Shown here: piece after piece, positions 4,429-51,556 of the stretch
How positions within the stretch are numbered: position 1 is the first letter of the stretch
Layout of the letters: the number at the start of each line of letters is the position of its first letter
From: Bdellovibrio sp. BCCA
GTDB taxonomy: Bacteria; Bdellovibrionota; Bdellovibrionia; Bdellovibrionales; Bdellovibrionaceae
Assembly (NCBI RefSeq): GCF_037996825.1
Contig: NZ_JBBNAC010000001.1
Location: forward strand, 248,001-312,000
Direction of reading: 5' to 3'
DNA: 64,000 nt
Notes under the pieces: model-generated
The model's input: only the letters and a program-made list of their open reading frames with translations
Databases searched by the model: none
Told to the model about the DNA's origin: nothing
Translations under genes and position numbers: made by a program

Positions 4429-4551
4429 CTAAAGATAAACGTACACAGCAATCAGAGTGATGATTATCGGTAATAAGAACGTGGCGCCAAGAACCCAAAG
4501 GGTTTTAGAGCGGGCTCTTTGTTCGTCATTTTCAATATTTTTTTCAGTCAT
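4429..4551 (-). CDS. Tiny single-pass membrane protein (40 aa)
   Basis: A 40-codon reverse-strand frame starts at ATG 4551-4549 and stops at 4431-4429. A purine-rich ribosome-binding site (AGAGGGAA) lies just upstream. The product has a charged N-terminus (MTEKNIENDEQRARSK) followed by a clean 22-residue hydrophobic helix (TLWVLGATFLLPIIITLIAV). That is the usual design of small inner-membrane proteins, with the N-terminus inside. It is convergent with the secA operon. The general shape recalls NapE/TorE-like small subunits but there is no real signature. Support comes from the ribosome-binding site and the composition. Confidence 0.6.
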   Translation of the reverse strand: MTEKNIENDEQRARSKTLWVLGATFLLPIIITLIAVYVYL

Positions 4552-4628: not shown

Positions 4629-4657
4629 TTGACCCGGCATTTCAAAAAAAGTAGTAT
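4629..4657 (+). promoter_or_regulatory. Sigma70-type promoter for the rsgA leader transcript
   Basis: TTGACC (4629-4634) and TAGTAT (4652-4657) are separated by exactly 17 nt, close to the vegetative consensus. Transcription would start near 4664, about 25 nt before the leader ATG at 4690. This is the best promoter match seen by eye in the window. Confidence 0.7.
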
Positions 4658-4689
4658 GACCTTATCAATCCACAAACCAGGAGGGCTCG

Positions 4690-4743
4690 ATGATTGTCAC
4701 ATTCTTTAAATCAAACCACAGCTCTCTGGGTTTTCAGTTTTAA
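4690..4743 (+). CDS. 17-residue leader peptide upstream of rsgA
   Basis: A near-perfect ribosome-binding site (AGGAGGG) lies 5-6 nt before the ATG at 4690. The frame encodes MIVTFFKSNHSSLGFQF and stops with TAA at 4741-4743. It sits between a strong promoter and the rsgA-family gene and is too short to be a conventional protein. Codons 10-14 overlap the 5' arm of a downstream hairpin, which is the geometry expected of a leader peptide where ribosome position controls RNA folding. The peptide has no run of one amino acid, so stalling by an inhibitor or by the nascent chain is more likely than starvation-type attenuation. The function is inferred. Confidence 0.55.
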   Translation: MIVTFFKSNHSSLGFQF

Positions 4744-4805
4744 TTTCTCTTTAAAATTTTAAAATCTCAAATCCACGAGAGCTCCGCTTTTATTTTTAAT
4801 TTTTA
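4720..4805 (+). terminator. Possible attenuator hairpin in the rsgA leader
   Basis: AGCTCTC-TGG (4720-4729) pairs with CCA-c-GAGAGCT (4773-4783), ten base pairs with one bulge. A T-rich tract (4787-4805) follows, so the unit resembles an intrinsic terminator with a long AU-rich loop. The 5' arm lies inside the leader ORF, so a ribosome paused there would block the stem and let transcription reach rsgA. A separate 14-bp AT palindrome (4798-4811) lies just before the rsgA ribosome-binding site. The pairing is seen in the sequence. The regulatory role is inferred. Confidence 0.5.
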
Positions 4806-4826
4806 AAAATTATTTGGAGTTATTGC

Positions 4827-5915
4827 GTGAATTTATATTCAAAGCTCATCCCTTTGGGGTGGGACGTATTTTTTGAACAACAGTTAGAAAATTTAAACGA
4901 AGGATTTCAAGTCGGCCGCGTGATCAGCCAGGAACGCGAATTATATCGTGTGGCCTTTTCCGCAGAGGAAACCTCCTGGGCGCAGCTTTCAGGGCGCTTT
5001 CGCCATGATCATGAAATGTCGTCAGGATCTTTCCCTGCGGTCGGTGATTGGGTCGTTTGTAAGAATGAAGAGCAACAAGATCGAGCACTCATTCAACAAG
5101 TGCTCGACCGTCGTTCTTGTTTTTATCGCAAAGATCCGATGCAAGGTGTGCAAGTCGTGGCCTCGAACATGGACGTCGTTTTTATTGTGACCTCTATGAA
5201 TAGGGACATGAACTTAAAACGCTTGGATCGTTATCTCAGCATGGCTTGGGACAGTGGCGCCTCACCGGTTGTAGTTTTAAGCAAGATGGATCTGGCCGAA
5301 GACGCAGAAGCCCTTATTCAGGAACTTGAAAACACTTATGTCGGTATTCCGATTCATGGAGTGAGTGTTTTAAATCCTGAAACGTGCGAGGTTTTAAAAA
5401 CATATTTAAAACCAGGAAAAACCGTCGTGTTGATGGGTTCCTCAGGGGTTGGCAAATCCACTTTGACGAATTTCTTTTTAGGAGAAGAAATTATTAAAAC
5501 TCAAAGTGCCAGAGAAGATGACGATCGCGGCCGACATACAACGACGTCACGTTTTCTGTATCAACTACCAGAAGGCGCTCTTTTGATGGACACACCAGGG
5601 ATGAGGCAGCTCGCATTGGTAGATCAGGAAGAGGGTGTCGAAGGACTTTTTGAAGACATCGTAGAATTAGGTTCTTCATGTCGCTTCAGGGATTGTGCTC
5701 ATCATGGAGAACCAGGCTGCGCAATTCAAGCAGCTCTTGAAGACGGAACTTTGCAGGAAGACAGGTGGGAAAGTTATTTAAAACTGCAAAAGGAAGTCGC
5801 CTTCCAAGCTCGCAAAGAGGATAAAAACAAGTTCGCGGAAGATAAGAAAAAATGGAAGCAGATCAGTAAAGACCTGCGCGTCCGTTTAAAACAAAAAGGC
5901 CGGGGAAAAATTTAA
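4827..5915 (+). CDS. rsgA: Ribosome small-subunit-dependent GTPase A (RsgA family)
   Basis: RsgA GTPases bind the 30S subunit, act late in its maturation and are stimulated by it. The 362-residue product shows the family's circularly permuted GTPase order: an N-terminal OB-fold (about 25-100), the G4 motif SKMDL (about 153), then the P-loop GSSGVGKS (204-211), G2 Thr residues in RHTTTS, G3 DTPGM, and a C-terminal zinc module CRFRDCAHHGEPGC (Cys285, Cys290, His292 or His293, Cys298). A Lys/Arg-rich tail follows. The start is GTG with a TTGGAG site upstream. The gene is single, driven by the promoter at 4629 and preceded by a translated leader, an unusual arrangement for a ribosome-assembly factor. 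Whether a second rsgA exists elsewhere cannot be seen here. Confidence 0.92.
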   Translation: MNLYSKLIPLGWDVFFEQQLENLNEGFQVGRVISQERELYRVAFSAEETSWAQLSGRFRHDHEMSSGSFPAVGDWVVCKNEEQQDRALIQQVLDRRSCFYRKDPMQGVQVVASNMDVVFIVTSMNRDMNLKRLDRYLSMAWDSGASPVVVLSKMDLAEDAEALIQELENTYVGIPIHGVSVLNPETCEVLKTYLKPGKTVVLMGSSGVGKSTLTNFFLGEEIIKTQSAREDDDRGRHTTTSRFLYQLPEGALLMDTPGMRQLALVDQEEGVEGLFEDIVELGSSCRFRDCAHHGEPGCAIQAALEDGTLQEDRWESYLKLQKEVAFQARKEDKNKFAEDKKKWKQISKDLRVRLKQKGRGKI

Positions 5916-6019: not shown

Positions 6020-6463
6020 ATGCTCCGATATTTGGCTATTCCTGTCGTTTTAATAGGGCTTCTAACGACAGCTTGTCAGACATCAATGCTCAAGCAGTTT
6101 TCAGAAGTAAAACCCGGCATGGAAAAAGACGATGTCCTGGATTTGATGGGAACTCCCACTCGCACGCAGCGCTATCATGGCAAAGACCGTTGGACCTACG
6201 TTTTCTATGACAAACGCATTCGCTTCGAAAAAGAAGTTCAATTCTTTGATGGCAGTGCTATTTACGTCGGTGATATTTCGCAACCGGAAGCCAATCGAAC
6301 AGCCGTTGCGATGGATACGACGAATGACGTTAAAAACAGAGAGATCGATGAGCAGATTGCTCGTGATGTAGAAAAGCACCGTCGCAGCTATGAAGAGTAT
6401 GAAGCACAAAGCAAAGGTGAGGATAAAGTCCGCTACGTTCCAAGTTTTGAACCCGTCCGCTAA
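6020..6463 (+). CDS. BamE/SmpA-OmlA-like lipoprotein
   Basis: The 147-residue protein starts with a lipoprotein signal peptide (lipobox LTTAC, acylated Cys about residue 19). It continues with the SmpA/OmlA-type fold seen in BamE: the segment FSEVKPGMEKDDVLDLMGTP, then an aromatic beta-region (DRWTYVFYD...). BamE-type proteins are accessory outer-membrane lipoproteins of the beta-barrel assembly machine, though many family members have other envelope roles. The C-terminal 50 residues are a charged helix not typical of E. coli BamE. It stands alone between rsgA and convergent genes, so assigning it as BamE itself is unsafe. Confidence 0.75.
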   Translation: MLRYLAIPVVLIGLLTTACQTSMLKQFSEVKPGMEKDDVLDLMGTPTRTQRYHGKDRWTYVFYDKRIRFEKEVQFFDGSAIYVGDISQPEANRTAVAMDTTNDVKNREIDEQIARDVEKHRRSYEEYEAQSKGEDKVRYVPSFEPVR

Positions 6464-51312: not shown

Positions 51313-51329
51313 AGTCATGGCAACACCAT

Positions 51330-51415
51330 TACTTGCTTCCCTGCGCGAGCATTATCTCTTTCAGGTTCAAAGGGTGTTTCTCAGCCATCAATTTCTTGAT
51401 AGCACCCCTAGCTTT
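51330..51415 (-). ncRNA. TPP (THI-box) riboswitch
   Basis: Read on the minus strand, the region shows the TPP aptamer in order. GCTAGGGGTGCT begins the aptamer. The hairpin ATCAA-gaaa-TTGAT follows, then GGCTGAGAAACACCC with the conserved CUGAGA, then GAACCTGA. AGATAATGCTCGCGCAGGGAAGC closes the P4/P5 arm. These are the invariant TPP-binding elements. It is upstream of a TonB-dependent receptor gene, whose Shine-Dalgarno site lies in an adjacent hairpin. Confidence 0.93.
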
Positions 51416-51556
51416 CAGGCATGGGTTATGTGGCAAGTTTAAAGCCCAGTCAAATAATATTTCGGCCGAAGGTCTTTTGCCAGGAGGCAAGGGTTGGAGT
51501 TTTGCTTTTTTATCCAAGGGAGCAGAGAATGGAAGTACAAAAGAGGAGTTGTTCTT

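Follow-up and report, generated by a model that had tools for sequence, protein, structure and literature searches.

A predicted ermC-type leader-peptide attenuator upstream of a gene of a distinct RsgA subfamily in Bdellovibrio sp. BCCA

RsgA is usually regarded as a housekeeping 30S assembly factor, and the locus analyzed here raises the question of whether a gene of this family in Bdellovibrio sp. BCCA is governed by a leader peptide. The window, i.e., the whole stretch of 64,000 nucleotides that was analyzed (positions 248,001 to 312,000 of contig NZ_JBBNAC010000001.1), carries the features collected in Table 1. A sequence-only reading of this DNA had described a promoter, a 17-residue ORF behind a strong ribosome-binding site, and a hairpin that overlaps the end of the ORF and is followed by a T-rich run and rsgA, and all of these elements are present as described. 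In the hairpin, AGCUCUCUGG (4720-4729) pairs with CCA.C.GAGAGCU (4773-4783) through 10 base pairs, with C4776 bulged. The promoter match alone is close to chance (2 found versus 1.6 expected; shuffle p of about 0.06), although identical -35 and -10 hexamers recur at an identical distance to the leader in close relatives (L003 to L005).

Table 1. Leader region and downstream gene, in window positions
Feature	Position	Strand	Details or basis
Promoter, sigma-70-type, TTGACC-17-TAGTAT	4629..4657	+	TTGACC 4629-4634, spacer 17 nt, TAGTAT 4652-4657
Segment 1, contains leader ribosome-binding site GGAGGG 4680-4685	4674..4687	+	Minimum-energy fold, swap test
Leader ORF, 17 codons, MIVTFFKSNHSSLGFQF then TAA	4690..4743	+	Read directly
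Segment 2, AGCUCUCUGG, leader codons 11-14	4720..4729	+	Partner is either segment 1 or segment 3
Segment 3, CCACGAGAGCUCCG	4773..4786	+	Segment 2 partner 4773-4783; segment 4 partners 4774-4777 and 4780-4786
Segment 4, contains rsgA ribosome-binding site UGGAGUU 4815-4821 and, at the start codon, CGUG 4826-4829	4815..4829	+	
RsgA-family GTPase, 362 aa, RsgA2 subfamily	4827..5915	+	GTG start; Pfam, TIGR00157, tree, AlphaFold model

Around this region, a 40-aa ORF with a ribosome-binding site (MTEKNIENDEQRARSKTLWVLGATFLLPIIITLIAVYVYL, 4429-4551, minus strand) diverges from the leader; it probably encodes a single-helix membrane protein, and a profile search gave no family match for it. A gene whose small, lipoprotein-like product contains a BamE domain lies immediately 3' of rsgA (6020-6463), a TPP riboswitch scoring 63 bits was found at 51321-51419 on the minus strand, and PADLOC returned no defence-gene match.

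The minimum-energy fold of the predicted transcript (z of -2.8) does not contain the reported hairpin. In this fold the region of the leader ribosome-binding site, 4674-4687, is paired with 4720-4733 (helix 1:2), while 4780-4786 (AGCUCCG) is paired with the rsgA ribosome-binding site at 4815-4821 (UGGAGUU) and 4774-4777 with CGUG at 4826-4829 across the GTG start codon (helix 3:4). The 2:3 hairpin, with its loop of 43 nt, is an alternative to both: segment 2 alternates between segments 1 and 3 as partners, such that 1:2 plus 3:4 and 2:3 are mutually exclusive. This pairing of the hairpin arms with the two ribosome-binding sites is the key part of the locus and had been overlooked in the sequence-only reading. 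The four-segment arrangement is the geometry of an ermC-type translational attenuator. In ermC, which encodes a 23S rRNA methyltransferase, a short leader ORF precedes four segments that pair as 1:2 and 3:4 in the OFF state and as 2:3 in the ON state, and the output is release of the ribosome-binding site. Two scans of the window clade found no terminator-like site between the leader ORF and the gene, and an intrinsic terminator at the hairpin was rejected for this clade. It is thus well supported that 2:3 is the ON-state helix rather than a terminator, and that the output is release of the rsgA ribosome-binding site.

Among the 30 RsgA loci fetched as a first set, the window locus included, 21 had matching segments upstream of rsgA together with a leader ORF behind a strong ribosome-binding site, and this conservation argues that the architecture did not arise by chance. 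Leader and stem are therefore shared with relatives, the opposite of what would have spoken against the sequence-only reading. The leader and switch recur before rsgA across the genus and the order, and relatives keeping the switch also keep the short ORF intact. The exact start motif GGAGGGCNNATGATTGT occurred 10 times in 141 genomes of the order, always at rsgA leaders, and a covariance model of the region gave 20 matches, at most one per genome, of which 17 lie at rsgA; the remaining three are weak (E of 0.004 to 0.009) and of uncertain place, strong matches being confined to rsgA. An element shared with other genes was rejected on these counts.

Pairing of all three helices was maintained in divergent lineages despite changed segment sequences. 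Helix 2:3 reads AGCUCUC/GAGAGCU in the window, AAGGGCCU/AGGCCCUU at L112 and GGUCUCCG/CGGAGACC at L137, and helix 3:4 reads AGCUCC/GGAGUU in the window, CCUUAAGUU/AACUUAAGG at L016 and CCUUUAGUA/UACUAAAGG at L124. Swapping partners between lineages weakened helix 1:2 (p = 2e-8), helix 2:3 (p = 2e-7) and helix 3:4 (p = 1e-5; n = 30). Mutually exclusive 2:3/3:4 pairing exceeded that of dinucleotide-shuffled spacers (p ≤ 0.05) in 28 of 50 Bdellovibrionota loci. Within the genus, 77 to 85% of cells pair in register versus 32 to 68% when slid, and compensatory changes are few; column covariation is weak and uninformative there because the helices hardly vary. Thus, of the compensatory changes proposed as a check on the stem, the swaps between lineages gave evidence for all three helices, whereas covariation within the genus did not. 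The geometry is tight across loci, segment 2 starting about 20 to 30 nt past the AUG, with about 16 to 20 nt between its end and that of the stop codon.

The peptide behaves differently from the RNA. GCUCUC is kept while its frame shifts between neighbouring clades, yielding SSL, ALL or GSP, and leaders across the phylum have little in common beyond a frequent MIV start. Beyond that start, the check for conserved leader residues that the sequence-only reading had suggested found divergence: around segment 2 it is the RNA that is conserved and not the peptide. A peptide-specific arrest motif is therefore unlikely, and it was rejected because the leaders differ too much. Local resemblances were seen, namely NRR(M/I)ALRLS in the leaders of three members of the order (L025, L027, and L028) and SPSVYR in Planococcus leaders (upstream regions of L042, L068, and L077).

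Ribosome occupancy was simulated by masking, for each leader codon, an assumed footprint of -16 to +14 nt from the P-site codon and refolding the RNA. The rsgA ribosome-binding site opened with the P site at codons 1 to 5 and was closed when no ribosome was present and when the P site lay at about codon 6 or beyond, the last codon included. Over 31 loci the mean unpaired probability was 0.23 at codons 1 to 5, compared with 0.13 without a ribosome and 0.11 at the last codon, and at the window locus it fell from 0.14 at codons 1 to 3 to 0.00 from codon 6, such that the opening in silico is partial both in the window and on average. The early-minus-late difference in opening was significant against shuffled spacers (p = 5e-10; 40 loci). 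With the assumed footprint, the effective stall is thus predicted to lie between the start codon and codon 5, with which the spacing of segment 2 is consistent. Pausing at codons 10 to 17, which had been proposed as the inducing position, fails in this simulation, as a ribosome there masks segment 2 and rsgA stays closed.

On the basis of these comparisons and the folding model, we propose, with a probability of roughly 0.75, that a leader-peptide translational attenuator of ermC geometry with a general early-arrest trigger controls an RsgA-subfamily GTPase acting on the small subunit. When no ribosome is on the leader, segment 2 would be bound to segment 1, and when the leader is translated normally to its stop codon, segment 2 would be masked; in both cases 3:4 would form and segment 3, lying on segment 4, would conceal the rsgA start codon together with its ribosome-binding site. 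A ribosome that arrests on the leader start codon or no further than about codon 5 would cover segment 1 and leave segment 2 free, which would then form the 2:3 helix with segment 3 and expose the rsgA ribosome-binding site. The trigger would most likely be general early arrest, caused by inhibitors of initiation or early elongation or by defective or starved ribosomes, and not peptide specific, and the GTPase, once made, would act on the small subunit as RsgA does. Comparison and computation speak for conservation of the ORF, for the alternative helices, for the behaviour predicted under masking and for the association with the subfamily described below; we infer leader translation, the trigger, induction and the physiological role, together with the response to ribosome stress or inhibitors that the sequence-only reading had suggested. 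Its notion of a leader-peptide attenuator before an RsgA-family gene has therefore held with respect to conservation, statistics and folding, but not with respect to the hairpin as terminator, the stall position or the identity of the gene as an ordinary rsgA.

The gene product contains a Pfam RsgA_GTPase domain (3e-49) and reached 157 bits with TIGR00157, above the curated cut-off of 100, but scored 188 bits with NF008931, the E. coli-type RsgA equivalog, below the cut-off of 360. The P-loop GSSGVGKS and the zinc-binding Cys/His residues are invariant alignment columns, PDB sequence matches of the product are RsgA, and the best structural matches of its AlphaFold model (pLDDT of 81) are RsgA on the 30S. 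In a rapidly built tree, which contained one aberrant row (L054), the branch dividing the subfamily, for which we introduce the name RsgA2, from ordinary RsgA had an SH-aLRT of 99 and a length of 0.64. An N-terminal xG[WFLY] motif is present in at least 68 of 110 subfamily members versus none of 27 ordinary copies, and many RsgA2 members have a basic C-terminal tail. Judged by these comparisons, the window gene represents a distinct RsgA subfamily and not the ordinary housekeeping RsgA.

Of 23 genomes belonging to other phyla, 20 encode an ordinary RsgA in addition to RsgA2, and the Clostridia-like genome G380 has two RsgA2 copies (C52:16532-17593 and C6:54220-55278) plus an ordinary RsgA. In the genus of the window, RsgA2 is the sole RsgA found, and profile search found no RsgA at all in 7 of 24 genomes (G004, G011, G013, G017, G018, G020, and G021). 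A 50-residue RsgA match in G011 (C6:428435-428584; E of 2e-6) may be a remnant.

Under a rule demanding an ORF with a ribosome-binding site of at least 6 matching bases, with gene starts assigned by a simple rule, a leader ORF precedes RsgA2 at 42 of 66 loci of its own phylum (Fisher p = 2e-14) and at 27 of 80 in other phyla (p = 4e-7), where sampling was shallower than for Bdellovibrionota, versus none of 48 ordinary rsgA controls, a few of which were counted twice, and about 1% of shuffles. RsgA2 genes without a leader under this strict rule thus number 24 of 66 within the phylum and form the majority in other phyla. At Clostridia-like loci, a copy of GGAGGG in the leader rivals the ribosome-binding site of the gene for CCCUCC. 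In seven Bacillales loci (L042, L043, L045, L050, L068, L077, and L092) an intrinsic terminator has a 5' arm that pairs with the leader (p ≤ 0.02), and by their sequences these versions follow the same logic through transcription attenuation. Somewhat short of an even chance, in our estimate, RsgA2 would be a widespread small-subunit GTPase that translation stress induces, equivalent for the 30S to HflXr and the ARE-ABCF proteins, held in many phyla under leader attenuators that work by ribosome-binding-site release or anti-termination, and protecting or repairing the 30S when initiation or early elongation is blocked.

The same switch could instead sense 30S maturity, with immature subunits at low RsgA activity slowing initiation or early elongation on the leader and thereby creating a homeostatic feedback on rsgA. 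Such a feedback would suit a genus in which RsgA2 is the sole RsgA found, and an initiation defect would take effect in the zone where stalling is predicted; we nevertheless consider it unlikely, given the coexistence with ordinary RsgA in most of the other-phylum genomes, the lack of such a leader at ordinary rsgA genes, and the genus genomes missing RsgA entirely. That the leader and its structure are passive, with rsgA translation either constitutively coupled or constantly low, is very improbable: three mutually exclusive helices are kept in divergent lineages and transcription-attenuator versions exist in Bacillales, even though a leader went undetected at many RsgA2 genes. Hardly any weight can be given to nascent-chain arrest at codons 10 to 17 by a specific peptide combined with termination at the 2:3 hairpin, which would fit a short ORF followed by a hairpin and T-rich run and the transcription attenuators of some Bacillales, but conflicts with the lack of a terminator-like site in the window clade, the variable peptides and shifting frame of segment 2, and the closed state computed for ribosomes at these codons. 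Equally implausible is a temperature- or protein-sensing 5' structure (e.g., RsgA acting on its own leader) with an incidental ORF: an AU-rich structure does sequester the rsgA ribosome-binding site, but the ORF and its strong ribosome-binding site are kept wherever the switch is kept, segment 2 lies inside the ORF with constant spacing to the start codon, and neither the leader nor any of 20 related loci matched an Rfam family.

The proposed early-arrest attenuator resembles ermC in its short leader ORF with its own ribosome-binding site, its four segments and its ribosome-binding-site output, which opens here in silico and partially; it differs in its target, an RsgA-family GTPase, in its nonconserved peptide and in its predicted stall at codons 1 to 5. 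In a paper that also mentions ermC-type attenuation, the HflX homolog HflXr (lmo0762) of Listeria monocytogenes is controlled by transcription attenuation through a 14-codon leader with an RLR motif, and antibiotic resistance was demonstrated (PMC6310831). In both systems, the gene for a homolog of a housekeeping GTPase of the ribosome is placed behind a short leader ORF whose RNA has alternative structures; however, HflXr acts on 70S recycling, whereas the window clade would combine a 30S-type GTPase with a translational output, and the RLR motif is absent from the window leader. At E. coli topAI-yjhQ, tetracycline and retapamulin arrest ribosomes at the start codon of the toiL uORF (PMC12121999). 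There too a leader ORF governs access to a downstream ribosome-binding site, but the pairing spans the whole uORF and any stall induces, in contrast to the early stalls alone that are predicted to induce here. For the ARE-ABCF genes vmlR and cplR (PMC9226507 and PMC10201436, cited in PMC12121999), start-codon arrest in the leader is the trigger, and an antibiotic role has been demonstrated. Ribosome-factor genes are again under leader attenuation, and vmlR combines the transcription and translation attenuation that are split between clades here, although the products are ABCF proteins and not 30S GTPases.

Two further reports concern RsgA proteins and antibiotics. In Streptomyces coelicolor, the RsgA paralog SCO6149 needs WblC and tetracycline for its expression, unlike the other copy (PMC7157823); control there is by a transcription factor, and we compare SCO6149 as an RsgA paralog and not as a placed RsgA2 member. 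B. subtilis without its ordinary RsgA (CpgA) is modestly more sensitive to chloramphenicol and linezolid (PMC12445079). The sequence-only reading knew of no leader-peptide control of RsgA, and our search of the open-access literature, in which subscription papers could be missed, likewise found no paper on an RsgA with a leader ORF. No mention of the locus was found in the main text of the B. bacteriovorus HD100 transcriptome paper.

In this model, the gene most likely encodes a 30S GTPase that is inducible and turned on when ribosomes arrest early. The association of RsgA2 with leaders spans several phyla, involves two modes of output and yields the sharp prediction of induction by arrest between the start codon and codon 5. 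If this is true, many bacteria would carry an inducible 30S factor, with a whole RsgA subfamily under leader-peptide attenuation, which would suggest an unrecognised layer of translation-inhibitor tolerance or small-subunit quality control.
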